Shown piece after piece: positions 9,846-45,756 of a stretch of 64,000 nucleotides of DNA. The position numbers and the translations under genes are program-made. How positions within the stretch are numbered: position 1 is the first letter of the stretch; each line of letters starts with the position of its first letter. This stretch comes from Pseudothermotoga thermarum DSM 5069. GTDB taxonomy: Bacteria; Thermotogota; Thermotogae; Thermotogales; DSM-5069. The stretch lies in contig NC_015707.1 of the NCBI RefSeq assembly GCF_000217815.1, positions 868,001 through 932,000 of the forward strand. Direction: 5' to 3'. Below the pieces are notes generated by a model. The model was not told the origin of the DNA and ran no database searches. It was given only the letters and a program-made list of their open reading frames with translations.

Positions 9846-10375
9846 ATGAAAGTTACAACAACAAATATCACCGAGTACCTATACCAAATTATACCAAACC
9901 TTTTTCAAAGACAAAGAGTTCCACATGAGGCGAAAGTATGAACTTGCATTAAGGAAGGCAGCAGCCATAATTGGAGTCAGTCATGAAGCCTTGAGGAAAT
10001 GGTGGACAAGGATGAAGGAAGGGATATTTGCTGAGAAGATAGAAGGCAATGCAGTAGTAGCTATAGACGAGATGAAGGTGAACATAAATGAGGTTAAGAG
10101 GAAGAAAGTGATCTATGCGTTGGTCAGTAAGACACGAGAGAAAGGCAAAGCAAGGGCCATGGTACTGGGAAGCGAGAAAAAAGAATATGGGATATTGGGA
10201 ACACGAGCATGAGAGGTTTGGGGAAAGAAGTCTTGTTGAGAGCGTGATAGGGATAAAAAGGTACAGGCTGAGGCGTTTTAACATAAGCAGGTTATGGTAC
10301 AAGAGGAGGGATGAGGACATAGTGAAGTGGCTATTTCCATTTCTTCTATTAGTGCAGTTTTCCTTCTTAAGTTGA
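9846..10375 (+). pseudogene. Broken DDE transposase (frameshifts and internal deletion)
   Basis: The coding remnant starts at an ATG at 9846 after a GGAGG-type site (9831-9835). The first frame (MKVTTTNITEYLYQIIP) is interrupted near a T-run at about 9899-9904. The reading continues in another frame through FFKDKEFHMRRKYELALRKA, an HTH-like GVSHEALRKWWTRMKEG, and the first catalytic-Asp block VVAIDEMKVNI. Around 10140-10160 the frame changes again to GPWYWEA and HERFGERSLVES, which resemble the third catalytic block and the C-terminal end of IS6-like transposases. The middle block with the second Asp is missing. Intact relatives would be about 220-300 residues; this one cannot make an active enzyme. 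Confidence 0.75.
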
Positions 10376-12527: not shown

Positions 12528-12558
12528 TTTTCGTAATGTAATCTCTATAGAATATAAT
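12528..12558 (+). promoter_or_regulatory. Promoter candidate for PNP and downstream genes
   Basis: A perfect TATAAT (12553-12558) lies 33 bp before the GTG start of the phosphorylase. The -35 region (TTTTCG near 12528-12533) is weak. It would split the dgcN-like/epimerase pair from the downstream run. Confidence 0.5.
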
Positions 12559-12590
12559 TGAAAAGTTTTGCAAAGATAGGAGGTGTTACT

Positions 12591-13433
12591 GTGCTTCCAC
12601 TTGGCGATATTCAAGAATACGTCGATCGCGTGAAAAAAGCAGTTGAATACCTCAAGGAAAAGATCAATGTTCAGCCAAAAATAGCCATAATACTAGGTTC
12701 AGGATTAGGGGGAATAGCCAAAGCCCTTGAGAATCCCGTGGTCATCAAGTATTCGGAAATACCAGGTTTTCCTGTTTCAACCGCACCGGGGCACAAAGGT
12801 GAGCTTCTCTTTGGGAAGTTGTCTGGAAAAGATGTCATGTTGATGAACGGTAGATTTCACTATTATGAAGGGTATTCGATGCGTGATGTCACCTTTCCAA
12901 TAAGAGTCATGCAACTTCTTGGAGTTAAGTATTTGTTCATTACCAACGCGGCAGGTGGTTTGAATCCAACGTTCGACGTTGGTAAGCCGATGATCATTGT
13001 AGATCACATCAACTTTATGGGAGACAATCCGTTGATCGGTCCAAATGTCGATGAGTGGGGTCCAAGGTTTCCAGATATGAGTGAGCCATACAACAAGGAA
13101 TTGATAAAACTTGCCGAGAAGGTCGCTCAAGAGGAAGGTATAGAAGTTTACAAAGGTGTTTACGTTGCGGTTGCCGGACCAAACTTCGAGACACGAGCAG
13201 AATTAAAGATGTTGAGAAATTTTGGAGCCGATGCGGTTGGTATGTCCACGGTGCCAGAAGTTATAGTAGCTTGCCATGCTGGTATAAAAGTTTTAGGCAT
13301 ATCTGCTATAACGGATAGGGCTGTACCAGAGGATTTGAAACCGTTAACTGCAGAGGAAGTTTTGAAAATCGCTGAAAAAACAGGTGAAAAAATTGCAAGG
13401 ATTATAATGGGTGTTGTGAAGTTACTTGATTAG
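12591..13433 (+). CDS. Purine nucleoside phosphorylase
   Basis: I place the start at GTG 12591 because AGGAGGTG at 12578-12585 precedes it; the longer TTG-initiated frame (12558) would begin inside the -10 element. The resulting 280-residue protein matches the trimeric (class II) PNP family. Visible motifs are ILGSGLGG (phosphate site), the HKGELLFG block, GRFHYYEGY, ITNAAGGLN, the base-binding VAGPNFETRAEL, and AVGMSTVPEV. It cleaves purine nucleosides with phosphate to free base and ribose-1-phosphate for salvage. It stands 15 bp before the first nifS-like gene. Confidence 0.93.
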   Translation: MLPLGDIQEYVDRVKKAVEYLKEKINVQPKIAIILGSGLGGIAKALENPVVIKYSEIPGFPVSTAPGHKGELLFGKLSGKDVMLMNGRFHYYEGYSMRDVTFPIRVMQLLGVKYLFITNAAGGLNPTFDVGKPMIIVDHINFMGDNPLIGPNVDEWGPRFPDMSEPYNKELIKLAEKVAQEEGIEVYKGVYVAVAGPNFETRAELKMLRNFGADAVGMSTVPEVIVACHAGIKVLGISAITDRAVPEDLKPLTAEEVLKIAEKTGEKIARIIMGVVKLLD

Positions 13434-37839: not shown

Positions 37840-38598
37840 TCAGTGGTTGATCAACCAATTGATTAAATCCTGCTTGAACAAACTTGACATGGTTGTGTCT
37901 TCAAAAAGCTCGTGAAAGCATCCTTCGTAAGCTTTAAAGATTTTATCCTTTGAGGCAACTTTTTGGGAAAATTGCTCCGCGCCCGTTGGCAAAACTATCT
38001 TGTCTTCCGTCCCAACCGCAACAAAACAAGGTATGGTTATCTTTTCGGCTTCTTCAATAGCCTTTTTGGAGTTTGTGAACATATCGTGCGCCAGTTTTGC
38101 AGAAATTCTTCTGTGTACCAGAGGATCTTCCACATATCTTTTCACAGCTTCTTTGTTTGTTGAAAGCAAATTTGGATCAATGCGGTTGTCAAAAGTCACC
38201 CAAGGAGTTATTACCGACGTTACTGCTGCCAATAATCGCAAGCTTGGTGAAACGTTGGGCAAGTGTAATGCAGGAGAGGTAACGATCAACCCACGCAAAG
38301 ATTTGCAAAATCTTGTTTCTGCATAACGTATGGCAATCAATCCACCAAGACTGTGGCCAAAAAGAAAGGAATTGGGATGCCTTTCCAACAAACTGTCGAT
38401 AAAACGAAAGACCTTCTTGAAAGACAAATGCCCTCTTTTTCCAGGGCTTTCTCCATGTCCAGGTAAATCAAAAAGCGTTAAACCATAGTCGACGGTTTTA
38501 AGTAACTCAACTAGCCAACCATACCTTTTTGAATGTTCTCCTAAACCGTGAACGAGAATCACCCATCCTCTTTTTCCCTCGAATTCCTTGATCCACAT
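37840..38598 (-). CDS. Alpha/beta hydrolase, monoacylglycerol lipase-like
   Basis: The 252-residue hydrolase has the oxyanion HGLGEHSKRY, the nucleophile elbow GHSLGG with S83, the acid in VGTEDKIVLP and the histidine in CFHELFED. The cap helices (residues about 115-180) fit Hydrolase_4 (serine aminopeptidase S33/lysophospholipase). No signal peptide, so it is cytosolic. Substrates may be monoacylglycerols or small esters. It overlaps the rnr C-terminus by 40 bp, a long overlap. Confidence 0.85.
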   Translation of the reverse strand: MWIKEFEGKRGWVILVHGLGEHSKRYGWLVELLKTVDYGLTLFDLPGHGESPGKRGHLSFKKVFRFIDSLLERHPNSFLFGHSLGGLIAIRYAETRFCKSLRGLIVTSPALHLPNVSPSLRLLAAVTSVITPWVTFDNRIDPNLLSTNKEAVKRYVEDPLVHRRISAKLAHDMFTNSKKAIEEAEKITIPCFVAVGTEDKIVLPTGAEQFSQKVASKDKIFKAYEGCFHELFEDTTMSSLFKQDLINWLINH

Positions 38599-40730
38599 TG
38601 TTTTTCATCCCCCACGTACTCAAAATCAATTTCTCCTGTGGCTTTATCGGCGTTGATCACCCTCGCTTTTATAACATCGCCAATTTTGAAAACTTTTCCA
38701 GTCCTTTCACCAACAAGAATGTTTTTCTTTTCATCGTAGTAGTAATAATCATCCAAAGTTGAAATGTGAATCAAGCCAGATATGAGCTTTTCAGGTATTT
38801 CAACAAACAATCCAAAGTGAGTTACATTTGTCACCACAACGTTGAAGATCTTTCCAATGAATCTTTTTATGTACTCAACTTTTTTAATGGCTATTAAATC
38901 CCATTCTGCTTCATCCGCGACACGTTCACGTCTACTGCAATGTTCGGCGATTTTAGGTAGCTCCTCGGAAAATTTTTGAATCTGCTTTGGGGTGAATTTT
39001 CCTTTTTGCTTAAGATAAATCTTCAAAAGCCTATGAACAACCAAATCTGGGTAACGCCTTATCGGAGATGTGAAATGAGTGTAAGCAAAGGAAGCCAAAC
39101 CGAAATGTCCAATGTTCGTTGCCGAATAAAGAGCTCTTTTCATCGACCTGACCAAAAGTCTTTCGACGCTTGATCGAAGCGGGTGATTTTTTACAGCCTC
39201 CAGTATCTTCTGTAAGAAGGCTGCATCGATCTTCTTTGGAAACTTTATACCAATACCCAACGCTTCTACGTATTCTTTCAATTGAACAAGCGTTTCGGGA
39301 TCAGGTTCTTCGTGCACTCTGTAAACGAAAGGCAAACCAGCTTCGTGGAAAATGTTTGCCACAGTTTCGTTAGCTTTGATCATGAATTCTTCGATCAAAA
39401 TTTCAGCCTTTCCGCGCACAACTGGAACTATATCAACGACGGAGTAATCTTTTCCAAGAATAACCTTGACTTCTCCTCCCTCGATGTCTAAAATCGCTCC
39501 TCGCGCTTTTCTGTATTCTCTAAGTATTTGAGATAGTTCAAGCATTAGATCTAACGAGCGGCAAATTTCCTTGCCCAGTATCTTTTTTGCTTCCTCGTCG
39601 CCTTCGAAGTATCTGTTGACTAGCGTGTAAGTCAGTCGTTTTTTGCTTTTTATATAGCTTGGAAAGACTTTATAATCAAGTGTTTCACCGTCTTTGTTTA
39701 TGAGCATTTGAACGGTGAAGGTTAAACGTATCTTTCCTTCGACCAAACTGCAAAGATCGTTTGATAATTTGAAAGGAAACATTGGAATAACTGTGTCAAG
39801 CAAATAAACACTTGTACCTCTCAAGAATGCTTCCTTATCGAGTGCAGAGCCTTCTTTGACGTAGTGAGAGACATCGGCTATATGAACAGATAAAAGGTAT
39901 TTATCCTTAACTTTCTTTATCGAGACAGCATCGTCAAAATCCTTGGCATCTTCGCCGTCGATAGTAAAAACTATTTCATCGGTACAATCAACTCTACCAA
40001 TCAAATCTTCTTTGGTGACATCATCTGGTAGCTCAGCCACTTCTTTCATCACTTCTTCAGGAAATTCTACTCTTAAAGAGTGCTTTGCAATCACACTTGG
40101 TATGTCTATTCTTGGATCTTCTGCATCGCCTAAAATCTGTACTATTTCCACTTCTGGTAGCTGATTTTTCCTAGGCCATTTCACTATTTTTGCCACAACT
40201 TTTAAACCCGGTCTGATACCTTTAACTGTTTTTGCATTTACAACAAATTCAAAATTTATCTTCGGATCGTCTGGTGTCAAGTAAAATCTCGATCGTCTAA
40301 GCTGCAACACTCCAACGATTTCGCGCTTTTCTCTTTTCAAAATCTTTATAACTTTTCCTTTTGGAAGGTTTCTCCATTTTCCAATTATTTCAACCATGAC
40401 TTTGTCCATGTGAATTGCCCCGTTGGCATCTTCAACCATTACCGCGATTTCTTCTCCATTTTCAGTTTTCACAAAAGCGATGTTTCCGCTTCGTGTAAAT
40501 TCGATGGTTCCAGTTGCAATTTCACGAGACGGTTTAAAGTAATGTCCAGCGCTGTCTTGTATTAAATATCCTTCTTCGATCAATTGCAATATTCTTTCCT
40601 TTATCGATTTTTTCTTATCTTTCGTTGTGGCACCGAAGTGTCGGTAAATTTCTTTCAAGACAACCTTCTTTTTCTGTGAAAAAAGTTCATCGATTTTCTG
40701 TATAAACTTTTTACTGATACGCCGTGACAC
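38559..40730 (-). CDS. rnr: Ribonuclease R
   Basis: I prefer GTG 40728-40730 behind AAGGAAAGGGG; a longer frame from 40775 adds 15 residues without a site. The 723-residue protein has an N-terminal HTH-like region, cold-shock domains (about 60-200), the RNB catalytic domain (about 230-560: TIDGEDAKDFDDAVSI supplies the metal-binding Asp cluster; PIRRYPDLVVHR is the RNB motif) and a C-terminal S1 domain (about 620-700). It degrades structured RNA 3' to 5'. The C-terminal tail after S1 lacks the long basic extension of E. coli RNase R. It begins 20 bp inside the GGDEF gene end. Confidence 0.93.
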   Translation of the reverse strand: MSRRISKKFIQKIDELFSQKKKVVLKEIYRHFGATTKDKKKSIKERILQLIEEGYLIQDSAGHYFKPSREIATGTIEFTRSGNIAFVKTENGEEIAVMVEDANGAIHMDKVMVEIIGKWRNLPKGKVIKILKREKREIVGVLQLRRSRFYLTPDDPKINFEFVVNAKTVKGIRPGLKVVAKIVKWPRKNQLPEVEIVQILGDAEDPRIDIPSVIAKHSLRVEFPEEVMKEVAELPDDVTKEDLIGRVDCTDEIVFTIDGEDAKDFDDAVSIKKVKDKYLLSVHIADVSHYVKEGSALDKEAFLRGTSVYLLDTVIPMFPFKLSNDLCSLVEGKIRLTFTVQMLINKDGETLDYKVFPSYIKSKKRLTYTLVNRYFEGDEEAKKILGKEICRSLDLMLELSQILREYRKARGAILDIEGGEVKVILGKDYSVVDIVPVVRGKAEILIEEFMIKANETVANIFHEAGLPFVYRVHEEPDPETLVQLKEYVEALGIGIKFPKKIDAAFLQKILEAVKNHPLRSSVERLLVRSMKRALYSATNIGHFGLASFAYTHFTSPIRRYPDLVVHRLLKIYLKQKGKFTPKQIQKFSEELPKIAEHCSRRERVADEAEWDLIAIKKVEYIKRFIGKIFNVVVTNVTHFGLFVEIPEKLISGLIHISTLDDYYYYDEKKNILVGERTGKVFKIGDVIKARVINADKATGEIDFEYVGDEKQCGSRNSREKEDG

Positions 40731-43700
40731 AGGCTTTTCCCCTTTCCTTAGAAATATACATTGCTTTATCTGCAAAAACGATAAGGTCTTCCGGACGCTT
40801 TGCAGGATCTTCAGGATAACCGCTTACCCCAAAGCTAAGTGTCAGCTTGAATTCAAATGGGTTTGTATCTATTATCGATTTTAATATTTTCTCAGCAACC
40901 TTGACTCCGTCGTTTTTTGTGGTGTTGAGAAGGATTAGAACAAACTCTTCTCCACCGTACCTGCTCAAAACGTCCGTTGATCTTGTGGAACTTCTTAGGA
41001 CTGACGATATAAACCTAAGCACTTCATCGCCAACGTCGTGACCATACTTATCGTTGATCTTCTTAAAGTCGTCGATGTCAGTGACTATCACACAGAAGTT
41101 TCCACCGTATCGATTAACTCTTTCGTATTCTTCTTTCAATTTCATCGCGAAGTAACGACGGTTGTACAAACCGGTCAATGGGTCTGTAATGCTCTCTTGG
41201 TATATCAAGATATTCTTCACGACGTGTGCGATGATTTCTTGCATTCTGATGAGCATTCTCAAAAATTCCGTGAAAATGGTTTCATCCAAATACAACGCTT
41301 TGTTGGCTACGTAAAGAACCAATGAATAATTTTCATAAACTGATACAACGTTGCAAACCTCAAGTGGAGTGTATGAAAACTTTGGCTTAAGTGGTACTTC
41401 GGATAGATTGATCGATATTTTCTCCACTATTTTTCCCTTGGGATTTCTTAAAACTAACGCCACTGATGATATCGGTAAAAGGCTCATCAACCTTGAGGCT
41501 AAAAATTCCATAGTTGTTGAAAGTTGATCCTGAGCACTCACAATTTTCAACGTATCCAGAGCGTATTCGGCAAAGTTTTGATATTCTATGATTTGGCCTA
41601 TCAAGTTTTTGGCATCGGACAGCAGGTTAGAGACTTCTTCGTTTGCTTTTTGCCTAGCAGATTCGACAATCGAAAGTACTTGATGAATTGGTGGGGCAAA
41701 CTTCAACTTGTTCTCAAGCCATTTGGCGGCGTTTTCAAAACCTCTGCTTTTGTAGATGGATATTGCCCGCTCTGCGTAGTTTATTGCCAAAGGTATTTCC
41801 CCTATACTTTGATAAGCCAGCGCAGCCCCTTCGTACACCTGAGCAAGCGAAAGGTAGCTTCCATATCTTATGTTGTCTTGTTCAAGCTGTTCAAGGAACC
41901 TTGTGAAACCTTCGCGATCCACTTTTATCAACCTTGGGCCGAATATTTGGCAAGTTTCTTCTTTCCAATAAGGATCACCTTTGTAAAGAAATTCTTTCCA
42001 AGCTTTGTAGAATTCTTGATCATCGTTTGCCAAAAACAAATTGCGAAACCTCACAAAAGCTGGATTTTTCATCGCTGGATTATCTATGTTTTCTTTTATC
42101 AACCTGACAGCTTCTTCGATATAACCACTTATTGCATAAGCTGCCACCAATCCTCTTAAACCTCTTTGCTCAATTCCAAGGTATTTTTCGATCTCTATTT
42201 CTCTCGAAAAATCTTCAAGTGCATTCTCAACCTCGTGGTTGTAAGAATGGTAATTACCTTCGACAAAGTAGCTGTAAGCTTCTACATTCAACATGCCTGT
42301 TAAGTGAGCGAGCTGTCTTAAACGTTGAAGATTTGCAAACATTTTTTCTACTTCGCCATGATAAAGGCTTACCCACACCAGGTTACTTAAGGCAGTTTGA
42401 ATTAACTCAGTTGATCCAATTTTATGACCAATCTCTATTACTTTTTCGTACAAACTTATTGCTTCAAAACTTGTCGTCATAATGCTTGCAATTGAAAACA
42501 ATATCCTTGGAAGAATATCAAGAAAATTGTTTTCCTCGGATATTTTTCTAATAGAATTTAACATTTCCATCACCTGCAGCGGATGGGATTCTCTTCTAAT
42601 TTCAGCGATCAGCAAAAGCGTTTGAATTTTTAACTTTAAATGTACTTTATTCATTTTAAGTCTACCAATCAAAATATCCAATTCTTTCATCAACTCTTTT
42701 GAGACTTCTTCACCGCTTGCAAGGATGCGTCTTACTTTCCAATACAGCTTTCTAAGCTTTGAATAATCCGTTGATGCTTCGAAAATATGCGGATTTTTCT
42801 CTTCAATTTCGCGTGCAAGGTTGATTTTGTTTGCAGCGACAAGGGCAACGTACTGCTCAAAAAGATATTTTTGATTTCCCTCAAGCATCAGCGCAAAAGA
42901 CTCAAGTAAATTTGGTTCTCCTTTGATCAAAAGGGCTTTGAGTTTTAAACTAATTAAAGCATAGCTTTGTCTAGCCGGAAAAATCTTTTCTGCTTCTTTC
43001 AAATAGTTCAAAGCGTCGGATAGTTCACCATAAGAATTCAGCTTCTTTCTTGCTGCAAGCAAGAAAAGACATGCTGCCGCTGCTTTTCTTCCTATCATAA
43101 GCATGTGCCAAGCCTTTTTCGCTGGATCGACAAACTTTTGAGACAAAATCAAATGATTCCTTTCACGCGTTTTTTCATCAATGCTTTGATAAAGTTTTTC
43201 CCAAATCTCTTTCAACGTGAATCTGTAACCATTGTTTTCCCAGTATACGATTCCATCTGTAAGAAGACTAGAAAGAGTTGGCTTAACCTTTATTCCTTGA
43301 TCTTCCATTGAGGTAAATAATGCTTCAAGATCTTCTACCGTGAACTTTTCTCCGCACAATGCAATTAAGTTTGATCCGTCTTTTTTGTATTTTTCCAAAT
43401 CAAGCTTTAGTTCAACGATCTCAGAAAAATCGTGAGCCAAAATCGCGGATGGATCAAACTGCAATTGTTCATTTTCGTATTTCAACGCCCCAATCTTTAT
43501 CGCTATGTCAACTACTTGAACAATTTTTCCTGGCAAACCTTGGGAGATTGTATAAACCCAATTGGAAAGCGTTTCAATTTGCTCGCCTGGTACATCAAGC
43601 ATTGAAGATAAGAAAAGCTGAGTTTTATGAATATCAAACGGCTCAAGTTGAATAAAATAATCGTACTTGACTGGTATAGGCATTTGAGTCGAAGCCAAAA

Positions 43701-44784
43701 GCAAAATGTGGCTAGTTTTGAAATTGAAAGAATTTAGCTGTTCTATTAGCGATCTCAAGGAAACTCCCATTTCTTGAACATCGTCGATGACGATAACTGA
43801 CTTGGAAATTTTGTTCAAAATCCTTCCCAAAGTTAAACTGATTTGGTCAACTGAAAGTCGCTTACCTGCCAAAAATTCTTCAATTACTTTTCGATCTATT
43901 TGATCCAAACTTTCATAGTCCTCGCTACTCAAAAGTTGAAGTGTTGCAAGAAAGAGGGTGTCAAAATTCTCAACCCATATAACGGGTATATTAAACTTTC
44001 TAACTTCTGTTGAAACGTAATCGAGTAGGGTTGTTTTGCCAGAACGTTGCGGACCATAAACCAAAATGGTTTGCAAACCAGATTTGGCGTTTAAAATCTG
44101 CTGTAAAATTTGGTCCGCTTCGTTCCTTTTCATGAATACTGGTTTAACTTTTATCACCTTTTTCTCGATTGTTTCTGAAAATATTTGCGGAAGCAGTGAC
44201 AAATGCGTTTTTCTGTTCGTGGGATCTTCATATACAAAGTCGTTGAAAAATTCTTTTAGTTCTGCTTCCTTCGCAAATTTCTGTGCAAGTTTTCCAAAGG
44301 TGTACGCAGTTGAAAAAATCGATGCTGTGCCGTATTTTTCAAACTCTGGGGCTACAACGATTTTTTCTCCTTTTGGTAATTCTTTACTGTTAAACCAAAT
44401 GGGAGGTATCATGTAAAAAGATTCAGAAAAGATGAAATCGTCTAAGGATAAAACGGGAATAGCGATTGAACGGTGAAGAAACTCCCTAAGAAGCGATAAA
44501 ACAAAGATTGCAAAATCTTTGCTTTGCAAATTTGCTTGATCCACTGGTTTTGCTTTAAAGTAAGGCAAATATATAACCGGTTTATCCCTAAGATCAAAGC
44601 TCTCTGGAATCAGCAATCCTGGATGTTTTACTTTCGAAATCATTGAGATGAAGTTTGCAAGTTTTGCTTTCGATCCCCCAATTGCCTCTGGTTTTAAAAC
44701 TTTCATTACTTTCAACATCGACTTATCTTCCACCAAATATTCACTACCATTGTAGGTTTCCCTTAGAAACTGTAATATTTTCAA
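40711..44784 (-). CDS. Pseudokinase / STAND-type ATPase / TPR / GGDEF signalling protein
   Basis: A 1357-residue cytosolic protein with no TM helices. Residues 1-200 resemble a protein-kinase fold (MKVLKPE with K28, KVKHPGLL near 51-58, VAPE at 144-147) but the HRD catalytic loop reads PVLSLDDFIF and no DFG is visible, so it is probably a pseudokinase. A P-loop ATPase follows (Walker A GPQRSGKT, 244-251; Walker B VIVIDDVQ, 330-337). Next come alpha-solenoid repeats (about 550-1010), a GAF-like sensor (about 1030-1180) and a C-terminal GGDEF domain (about 1190-1357) with intact GGEEF at 1277-1281 and inhibitory-site RSTD at 1268-1271. It should make cyclic-di-GMP. Family relatives end in histidine kinase or LuxR modules instead. 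Confidence 0.85.
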   Translation of the reverse strand: MKILQFLRETYNGSEYLVEDKSMLKVMKVLKPEAIGGSKAKLANFISMISKVKHPGLLIPESFDLRDKPVIYLPYFKAKPVDQANLQSKDFAIFVLSLLREFLHRSIAIPVLSLDDFIFSESFYMIPPIWFNSKELPKGEKIVVAPEFEKYGTASIFSTAYTFGKLAQKFAKEAELKEFFNDFVYEDPTNRKTHLSLLPQIFSETIEKKVIKVKPVFMKRNEADQILQQILNAKSGLQTILVYGPQRSGKTTLLDYVSTEVRKFNIPVIWVENFDTLFLATLQLLSSEDYESLDQIDRKVIEEFLAGKRLSVDQISLTLGRILNKISKSVIVIDDVQEMGVSLRSLIEQLNSFNFKTSHILLLASTQMPIPVKYDYFIQLEPFDIHKTQLFLSSMLDVPGEQIETLSNWVYTISQGLPGKIVQVVDIAIKIGALKYENEQLQFDPSAILAHDFSEIVELKLDLEKYKKDGSNLIALCGEKFTVEDLEALFTSMEDQGIKVKPTLSSLLTDGIVYWENNGYRFTLKEIWEKLYQSIDEKTRERNHLILSQKFVDPAKKAWHMLMIGRKAAAACLFLLAARKKLNSYGELSDALNYLKEAEKIFPARQSYALISLKLKALLIKGEPNLLESFALMLEGNQKYLFEQYVALVAANKINLAREIEEKNPHIFEASTDYSKLRKLYWKVRRILASGEEVSKELMKELDILIGRLKMNKVHLKLKIQTLLLIAEIRRESHPLQVMEMLNSIRKISEENNFLDILPRILFSIASIMTTSFEAISLYEKVIEIGHKIGSTELIQTALSNLVWVSLYHGEVEKMFANLQRLRQLAHLTGMLNVEAYSYFVEGNYHSYNHEVENALEDFSREIEIEKYLGIEQRGLRGLVAAYAISGYIEEAVRLIKENIDNPAMKNPAFVRFRNLFLANDDQEFYKAWKEFLYKGDPYWKEETCQIFGPRLIKVDREGFTRFLEQLEQDNIRYGSYLSLAQVYEGAALAYQSIGEIPLAINYAERAISIYKSRGFENAAKWLENKLKFAPPIHQVLSIVESARQKANEEVSNLLSDAKNLIGQIIEYQNFAEYALDTLKIVSAQDQLSTTMEFLASRLMSLLPISSVALVLRNPKGKIVEKISINLSEVPLKPKFSYTPLEVCNVVSVYENYSLVLYVANKALYLDETIFTEFLRMLIRMQEIIAHVVKNILIYQESITDPLTGLYNRRYFAMKLKEEYERVNRYGGNFCVIVTDIDDFKKINDKYGHDVGDEVLRFISSVLRSSTRSTDVLSRYGGEEFVLILLNTTKNDGVKVAEKILKSIIDTNPFEFKLTLSFGVSGYPEDPAKRPEDLIVFADKAMYISKERGKACVTAYQ

Positions 44785-44787
44785 ATT

Positions 44788-45756
44788 TTATCCCCCCATG
44801 GCCTCCCGAACCAATGTTAGTACTTCTTTTAAAACCTGCCATGGGTCTGCATTTTCAAAAGAGCAACCTGCCGCTCTTGCGTGTCCTCCGCCTCCAAGAG
44901 TTGCTGCAATTTTGCTTACATCGACGTAGTTTTTCGATCTTAAACTAACATGTACGCGATTTTTAGGATATTCCATTACCAAAACCGCTACTTCGACGTT
45001 TTTCAAAGACCTTATTTCGGAGACAAATCCCGAGCTGTCTTGATCGGTGCAACCGCAGGAGAGATAATCTTCAAAGGTAAGCACTGAATACGCCAAGCCT
45101 TTTTCAACTTTTATTTTATCTATCATCTTTGACAACAACAAAAATTGGTTCAGAGTTTTGTTTTCTAGGATCGTTGAAGCTACGAAATGTGGTTTTGCGC
45201 CCATTTCGACAAGTTCTGCTGCATCTTTCAGAAGGTTGGAAGTCGTGTTCGAATATCTGAAAAATCCACTGTCTGTGGCCAAACCAACAAAGTTTATCGT
45301 CGCAAGTTCTTCGTTGTACTCAATCCCAAGAACTTTGTTGAGATGAAAAACCATTTGAGCAGTGGCAGCATAAGTTGAATCGACCCAGTTTATATCCCCA
45401 AAGAAACCGTTTGTTGCGTGATGATCGATAACAACAATGGTATGCTCTGGAAGTATTTTTACAAATCTTCCAACTCTGTCTGGAGAAGAGCAATCTAAAA
45501 CAACCACAACATCTGGCGAAAACTTTAAATCCAAAAATTTTTCGTAGTCAATCAAATCCTTAACCCCTGGAAAAACCAAATATTCTGGTGGAATTTTATC
45601 ATCAATTGCTCCAAGAACGCTTTTTCCAAGTTGTTGTAAACCAAGTGTTAACGAAACAACAGAACTTATATCGTCACCGTCTGGCATTATGTGACCTACG
45701 ATCAAAATCCTTTGTGAATCGGTTAGCTTTGAAATTAGTGAAGAAAATTTAATCAT
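44788..45756 (-). CDS. nrnA: DHH-DHHA1 phosphoesterase (NrnA type)
   Basis: A 322-residue DHH protein. Manganese-binding motifs are GHIMPDGDDISS, VVLDCSSPDR, VVIDHHATN (the DHH), TDSGFFRY, and the DHHA1 motif LGGGGHARAAG near 300. NrnA enzymes degrade oligoribonucleotides to mononucleotides and hydrolyse pAp. This fits beside RNase R. An alternative role is c-di-AMP or pGpG turnover: pGpG is the breakdown product of the c-di-GMP likely made by the next gene's GGDEF domain. The stop is 3 bp from that gene's start. Confidence 0.9.
   Translation of the reverse strand: MIKFSSLISKLTDSQRILIVGHIMPDGDDISSVVSLTLGLQQLGKSVLGAIDDKIPPEYLVFPGVKDLIDYEKFLDLKFSPDVVVVLDCSSPDRVGRFVKILPEHTIVVIDHHATNGFFGDINWVDSTYAATAQMVFHLNKVLGIEYNEELATINFVGLATDSGFFRYSNTTSNLLKDAAELVEMGAKPHFVASTILENKTLNQFLLLSKMIDKIKVEKGLAYSVLTFEDYLSCGCTDQDSSGFVSEIRSLKNVEVAVLVMEYPKNRVHVSLRSKNYVDVSKIAATLGGGGHARAAGCSFENADPWQVLKEVLTLVREAMGG

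Follow-up and report, generated by a model that had tools for sequence, protein, structure and literature searches.

A predicted pseudokinase joined to a STAND-type NTPase, a TPR-type solenoid and a diguanylate cyclase in a protein family of the Thermotogota

This analysis concerns a long chain that has a kinase-like domain at its head and ends in a diguanylate cyclase. The chain, of 1357 amino acids, is encoded in a 64,000-nucleotide stretch of the Pseudothermotoga thermarum DSM 5069 genome (assembly GCF_000217815.1, contig NC_015707.1, positions 868,001 to 932,000 of the forward strand); we call this whole stretch the window, and its numbering is used throughout. The gene lies on the minus strand (Table 1). 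The original prediction, made from the sequence alone, named no strand and described a protein of five parts; the kinase-like N-terminus, Walker motifs, repeats and GGDEF domain were all recovered, and the GAF domain could not be demonstrated. The reading that we favor, and consider somewhat more probable than its alternatives taken together, is that the protein is a Thermotogota switch for cyclic di-GMP (c-di-GMP), in which STAND-type assembly, gated via a fixed pseudokinase, activates GGDEF dimers.

Relatives were collected by searching 103 Thermotogota genomes with residues 1–1158 at an E value of 1e-3 or better. Matches were obtained in 57 genomes, two of them weak (G015 and G087), and one ortholog from each of 48 of these genomes was aligned, together with three tandem paralogs. 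The two weak matches, the truncated copies L018 and L043, and G041, G054, G055, G090 and G096 were left out. Counts of orthologs given below refer to these 48. Families are labeled f1, f2 and onward as in this genome set; f1 to f3 belong to the order Thermotogales.

The fold of the N-terminal domain was examined by structure modeling and by profile comparison. A model of residues 1–214, built from six sequences, had a mean predicted local distance difference test score (pLDDT) of 85.0 and a predicted template modeling score (pTM) of 0.82, and its strands and helices follow the order found in kinases. All 50 rows shown by Foldseek for this model were kinases or pseudokinases (best E value 3.1e-8), with template modeling scores to the query of about 0.5–0.7; some of the top rows superposed poorly, with a root-mean-square deviation (rmsd) above 12. 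VIA ranked the Jak1 pseudokinase first, with Z 17.2 and an rmsd of 2.8 across 202 residues; LIMK2, PknI and others came within 1 of that Z and count as tied. For hhalign, 34 of the 48 N-domains were combined into a profile, without those of f3 and f10, which are eroded. Against ten active-looking Thermotogota kinases this profile matched over 154 columns with an E value of 4e-5 and a probability of 70%; a control with another region of the family gave an E value of 0.47 and a probability of 0.1%. Sequence databases gave fainter signals. Eight of ten members had no Pfam kinase match in the N-domain, and weak matches were seen to PK_Tyr_Ser-Thr in L010 (0.039) and to Pkinase in L044 (0.077). The N-domain profile matched PDB sequences weakly (best E value 0.035) and mostly at the APE region; of 77 rows, the 60 shown were kinases except for two, GC-C and a synthetic fusion. 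The Pfam and PDB-profile results would not by themselves settle the identity of residues 1–205, but in the model the bilobal kinase fold is clear. The original prediction had made the structure of residues 1–200 the point on which its kinase-like N-terminus would stand or fall, and the predicted structure is kinase-like.

The catalytic residues are a different matter. In the hhalign register, the catalytic Asp of HRD pairs with V111 and the metal-binding Asn with D116, and DFG falls opposite a gap. No ortholog has Asp at position 111, where the residues are V (20), Y (11), F (7), I (4), A (3), T (1), S (1) and C (1); in L057 the residue at 110 is D. None of the 48 contains HRD, HGD or YRD in its first 215 residues, and none has DFG at the equivalent place; L058 has a DLG at 37 and L057 a DFG at 52, both of them strays elsewhere in the domain. 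Thus the absence of HRD and DFG, first noted for this one protein, holds throughout the family. Measured against a Hanks-type kinase, residues 1–205 have the predicted fold and lack both the HRD Asp and DFG, and we classify them as a predicted pseudokinase. Because the catalytic Asp and DFG are gone from every aligned sequence, the domain, as judged from its residues, cannot be a normal kinase. A kinase fold kept without catalytic residues throughout a family is most naturally read as a sensor or scaffold, as the original prediction had suggested.

Two other roles for this domain were weighed. The first is that of an atypical transferase, still active but with changed chemistry, for example AMP transfer, as in other unusual kinase folds. 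Position 116, in the catalytic-loop region, is D in 46 orthologs, as an active site might require, but no conserved polar set has replaced HRD and DFG. Most orthologs have V, Y, F, I or A at position 111, and 38 have P at position 128. We regard such an activity as very improbable. The second is that of a non-catalytic sensor: the pseudokinase would still bind a nucleotide, ATP or another, through the basic residue at position 28 and D116, and would thereby inform the cyclase of the energy or purine state. Position 28 is indeed basic in 47 orthologs (K in 32, R in 15), D116 is as constant as just described, a phosphodiesterase gene lies upstream, and in f2 and f3 a PNP_UDP_1 gene stands in the same run. 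With DFG gone and P prevalent at position 128, however, the usual metal-nucleotide binding is unlikely, and in f3, f10 and f11 the C-lobe is degraded; a nucleotide or small-molecule sensor is therefore an unlikely reading, although one to keep in view.

The next domain is a P-loop nucleoside triphosphatase (NTPase). At 1e-3, 28 of 39 members match ATPase_2, and NB-ARC and NACHT are each matched by three; in the 1357-residue protein the NB-ARC match (1.5e-4) is under the Pfam cut-off. The Walker A and B motifs that the original prediction had picked out, GPQRSGKTT and the IDD at 333–335, proved to be constant in the family at K250 and D334, and G249 is invariant as well (48/48). The GLPG further on presumably corresponds to the GxP motif of NB-ARC/STAND NTPases. 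A profile of 39 NTPase sequences matched the plant NLR Roq1 in the PDB at about 5e-6, behind an ABC-F protein and a designed P-loop protein, and at least one match, to a viral matrix protein (2.4e-4), was evidently false; because of these, the PDB ranking does not establish kinship to STANDs. The protein does combine two of the parts expected of a STAND, namely a P-loop NTPase related to ATPase_2, NB-ARC and NACHT with both Walker motifs, and a repeat sensor domain.

The long repeat region noted earlier is of TPR type. TPR_12 was found in 12 of 25 members (best E value 4.3e-14), the match in this protein (2.6e-5) being under Pfam's cut-off, and the solenoid profile of 25 sequences had APC5 as its sole PDB match (0.008–0.01). 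Between the solenoid and the cyclase, the predicted order of helix, five strands and helix is GAF-like. The protein has no Pfam GAF match, GAF_3 was matched in only three of 46 relatives (best E value 0.078), and a profile of 46 sequences of this region listed no GAF among its PDB matches. Foldseek and VIA with a model of the C-terminal part returned the GAF/PHY–GGDEF multidomain entries 5llw and 4zmu with large rmsd, an indirect test of GAF because the rows were filled by GGDEF. A GAF domain after the long helix is thus probable only.

In the model of the C-terminal part, the cyclase domain matched 3ign in VIA with Z 26.9 and an rmsd of 1.2 over 162 residues. The intact active and inhibitory sites of the original prediction are there, as GGEEF and RxxD, and are found in all 45 orthologs that cover them. 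D1253 of GHxxGD is kept in 46/46; this Asp marks cyclases that use GTP, as opposed to those making cGAMP. With GG[DE]EF, the metal-binding Asps and RxxD all present, the domain should, on its residues, make c-di-GMP. The invariance of RxxD (45/45 reaching it) would also suit a protein that is chiefly a scaffold, with a constitutively active cyclase limited by feedback alone. A plain scaffold would not need the Walker A Lys and Walker B Asp, which are kept in 48/48 over deep divergence, and we think this explanation improbable. The genome as a whole has nine GGDEF matches (two overlapping at one place), ten HD_5 matches, one PilZ match and no EAL match. A GGDEF stretch at G000:C1:1881292-1881757 runs across two frames, one with internal stops, and is likely a decayed cyclase gene. 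In a Fervidobacterium, cyclase and phosphodiesterase genes and c-di-GMP are described as going up early in keratin use (PMC13157175).

The scheme that we propose for switching, assembly, the role of the pseudokinase and a link to pGpG builds on the observed domains, motifs and gene order and on the predicted fold. GGDEF enzymes act as dimers. STAND proteins with a TPR sensor are described as closed while ADP is bound and as open and multimerizing once they have changed to the ATP-bound form (PMC6468293). These two properties together suggest that activation is driven by assembly. The resting chain would hold ADP and be kept closed by contacts between solenoid and NTPase, as in MalT-like STANDs, until a partner or ligand bound by the pseudokinase, the solenoid or both opened it. 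ATP would then replace ADP, the chains would assemble, and their C-terminal GGDEF domains would be brought into the dimer needed for c-di-GMP synthesis, with c-di-GMP at RxxD limiting the output. The pseudokinase would be a docking or gating module beside the NTPase, not an enzyme. The TM1595-type phosphodiesterase encoded close upstream may remove linear dinucleotides, which would link the turnover of short RNA or pGpG to the switch. Control of the cyclase by the ATPase switch, as the original prediction proposed, would fit the retention of NTPase and cyclase motifs in every ortholog that covers them.

Several points weigh against this scheme. ATP switching, assembly and the coupling of NTPase to cyclase are inferred. 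Residues 1–205, or 1–214, of the protein itself gave no Pfam kinase match. The APE motif, kept in this protein, is lost in f3, f10 and f11, where the pseudokinase is less constrained than the NTPase. The linker and GAF-like region are among the least conserved parts (13–17% in the between-family comparisons printed), which is odd for a shared ligand site. Finally, outside the Thermotogales (f7, f10 and f11) a phosphodiesterase gene adjoins the family gene at none of the 12 testable loci; a thirteenth, L043, is not counted because its sequence begins within the gene.

The family is widespread in its phylum. It was found in all 11 f1 genomes, all 20 of f2, and nine of 14 of f3 (one of the nine weak). 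In a tree of residues 206–1357 (45 rows, three incomplete rows having been dropped), each family label formed a clade with support of 1.0, the f10 clade being taken from the Newick string. The most economical history has a single fusion, made long ago with a kinase that was dead by then, and mainly vertical descent since. The P. thermarum genome, a single 2.04 Mb contig, has one full-length copy. It has no match to the Hanks-kinase family PF00069, and because no recognizable Hanks kinase is present, a role in copying or opposing one is unlikely in this genome. PF00069 was matched in 27 of the 103 genomes. The idea that it and the family exclude each other was ruled out: of 55 genomes with a strong family match, nine have both and 46 lack PF00069. 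Short, active-looking Hanks kinases were seen in f9 genomes (L084-L087, L089-L093), none of which is listed with a family match. There was no match to relatives on plasmids. A scan of genome contigs with two short patterns confirmed only five loci, all labeled Thermotogota or its genera, the named relatives being Pseudothermotoga, Thermosipho and unclassified Thermotogota; a scan of this kind does not show that the family is absent outside the phylum.

The family is a deeply conserved case of a kinase domain kept as a non-enzyme. Because one chain, whose source is presumably thermostable, carries a pseudokinase, a STAND switch and an enzymatic output that can be measured, the way in which pseudokinases gate NTPase switches could be tested directly by following c-di-GMP.

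Gene context was examined at 46 loci, those of the window and 45 others. Immediately upstream in the window is a gene with DHH and DHHA1 domains whose closest solved relative is Thermotoga maritima TM1595/TmPDE; TM1595 resembles this neighbor, not the 1357-residue protein. The NCBIfam NrnA model matched it at 3.5e-32, yet with 111.6 bits where the cut-off is 350. At 33 of 33 Thermotogales loci examined (f1, 11/11; f2, 16/16 examined of 20 matching; f3, 6/6 examined of nine matching), a TM1595/NrnA-like gene stands upstream in the same orientation, and at nine f2 loci a tandem paralog stands between the two genes. The tandem paralog occurs in genera g5 and g6 of f2 (L039:3477-7214, L040:2807-6541, L041:1751-5389, L073-L075 and L080-L082); at 9/9 loci examined its Walker A and RxxD are gone and its GGEEF is intact. 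By its motifs it looks like a partner dependent on the switchable copy. The rest of the neighborhood differs. RNase R is the next gene downstream at ten of 11 f1 loci (at the eleventh the contig ends first) and at none in the other families; a PNP_UDP_1 gene precedes nrnA at 14/16 loci in f2 and 6/6 in f3, and a single f1 genome (L061) also has it, in the order PNP, nrnA, family gene, RNase R. Because the surroundings vary between families while the pair persists, a functional link is favored, although inherited gene order alone could possibly explain the pairing.

The original prediction had proposed that the adjacent nrnA could remove pGpG formed in c-di-GMP turnover, and both the kinship to TM1595 and the regular pairing in Thermotogales speak for it. 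HD-GYP enzymes can carry on to GMP, and NrnA has housekeeping work on short RNA too. Enzymes of the nrnA type are described as hydrolyzing pGpG (PMC6256023). With no EAL match in this genome, ten HD_5 matches, and HD-GYP enzymes able to reach GMP, pGpG removal is perhaps only part of the reason for the pairing; its absence in f7, f10 and f11 is a further reservation. A blanket rule by which genomes without EAL carry nrnA fails, as 54 of 103 genomes in the phylum have EAL.

Long chains of related design have been described. A Clostridium thermocellum protein of 1826 residues (gi|23020879), reported in 2005, has a kinase, six TPRs and GGDEF (PMC1262709). Compared by description, not by sequence, it shares with our protein the N-terminal kinase-family domain, the TPR region and the C-terminal GGDEF, and differs in being listed as a kinase. 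Because such chains were in print by then, the domain order of the outputs is not itself new; what is new here is the fixed pseudokinase, its spread through much of a phylum, and the conserved phosphodiesterase neighbor in one order. The same source gives '1 (1)' under STYK for T. maritima, the bracket denoting no catalytic Asp, while its discussion says that none was found, and from these entries it cannot be told whether this protein is meant (PMC1262709). Among the matches listed from the open-access literature there was no publication on this Thermotogota pseudokinase–STAND–GGDEF family. The Mycobacterium tuberculosis kinase with a MalT-like part is, we take it, PknK. It too joins an N-terminal kinase-family domain to a MalT-like region, but it is listed as a kinase, with no GGDEF in that listing (PMC1262709). 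Cyanobacterial cbSTKIII/HstK-type dual kinases carry a kinase domain, GAF and a signaling output in one long chain; they are regarded as kinases and their output is HisKA, whereas here it is GGDEF (PMC2176072). Our protein has neither the catalytic residues of an active Ser/Thr kinase nor a listed HisKA match.

Receptor guanylyl cyclases such as GC-C have a pseudokinase upstream of a nucleotide cyclase, but they are membrane receptors with another class of cyclase and no NTPase switch; the output of MalT is a LuxR-type DNA-binding domain. GC-C ranked fourth in the N-domain profile search with an E value of 0.12, which is not significant, and its best stretch lay outside the kinase-homology part. 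MalT and PH0952, in which a P-loop switch is followed by a TPR sensor, are the model for the mechanism proposed here (PMC6468293); they have no pseudokinase and no cyclase. Plant ZAR1 works as a STAND NTPase via the kinase-fold partners RKS1 and ZED1, the latter termed a pseudokinase (PMC10561179). Those are separate proteins of a plant immune receptor, whereas the Thermotogota protein is a single chain with a cyclase output.

The likeness to ZAR1 allows a bolder reading, which is speculative and, we think, decidedly unlikely: that the protein is a single-chain bacterial counterpart of plant resistosome logic, with a tandem duplicate working as a pair with the switchable copy. Partner binding to the pseudokinase would force nucleotide exchange, and the assembled ring would make a second messenger instead of causing cell death. 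In the lineage that has the duplicate, one copy would sense and switch while the other, NTPase-dead and feedback-free, would let a mixed assembly escape inhibition by c-di-GMP.

Table 1. Features of the gene for the 1357-residue protein and of neighboring genes in the window
Feature	Position	Strand	Residues	Basis or conservation
Whole gene (pseudokinase, STAND-type NTPase, TPR-type solenoid, GAF-like, GGDEF; TTG start)	40711..44784	-	1-1357	Open reading frame (ORF)
Shine-Dalgarno-like GGGGGG within 3' end of upstream gene, 7 nt before TTG	44792..44797	-		
Predicted pseudokinase domain (N-lobe about 1-80, C-lobe 81-205)	44170..44784	-	1-205	Model, VIA, hhalign
Catalytic-loop equivalent IPVLSLDD	44437..44460	-	109-116	Register from hhalign
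APE motif	44344..44352	-	145-147	A 32, P 31, E 32 of 48
P-loop NTPase of ATPase_2/STAND kind	43495..44169	-	206-430	ATPase_2 4.9e-12
Walker A GPQRSGKTT	44029..44055	-	244-252	K250 48/48
Walker B IVIDDV (IDD 333-335)	43777..43794	-	331-336	D334 48/48
GLPG	43528..43539	-	416-419	G416 and G419 48/48, P418 44/48
Helical repeat region with TPR matches	41680..43107	-	560-1035	TPR_12
Long helix, then GAF-like domain (about 1088-1199)	41200..41679	-	1036-1195	Secondary structure
GGDEF diguanylate cyclase	40714..41199	-	1196-1357	Pfam 8.7e-43
Inhibitory-site motif RxxD	40972..40983	-	1268-1271	R 46/46, D 45/45 with sequence there
Active-site motif GGEEF	40942..40956	-	1277-1281	45/45 orthologs reaching site
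Upstream DHH/DHHA1 phosphodiesterase, NrnA-like, likely ortholog of T. maritima TM1595 (TmPDE)	44788..45756	-		5o1u 1.1e-100
Downstream RNase R (listed ORF overlaps gene by 65 bp)	38559..40775	-		TIGR02063 5.1e-241
PNP_UDP_1 purine phosphorylase gene	12558-13430	+		Pfam

Three bases separate the stop of the upstream gene from the TTG of the family gene. This start is credible because homologs begin at the same residue and GGGGGG lies just ahead of it. The overlap with RNase R probably means that the true RNase R start is later than that of the listed ORF. Gene 12 of the window was considered as truB, which was ruled out by its Pfam match to purine phosphorylase.

Some copies in other genomes are broken. 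At L048:6263-9190 the copy ends near the GAF-like region and a further family piece lies just downstream; the break is a frameshift in the genome or its assembly. Near 10035, at the end of the L060 gene, the last residues are out of register with their relatives, probably through an assembly frameshift in this metagenome-assembled genome. In f10, the gene at L055:3244-12660 stands between an H+ pyrophosphatase gene and genes for a PHP-domain protein and fliD.

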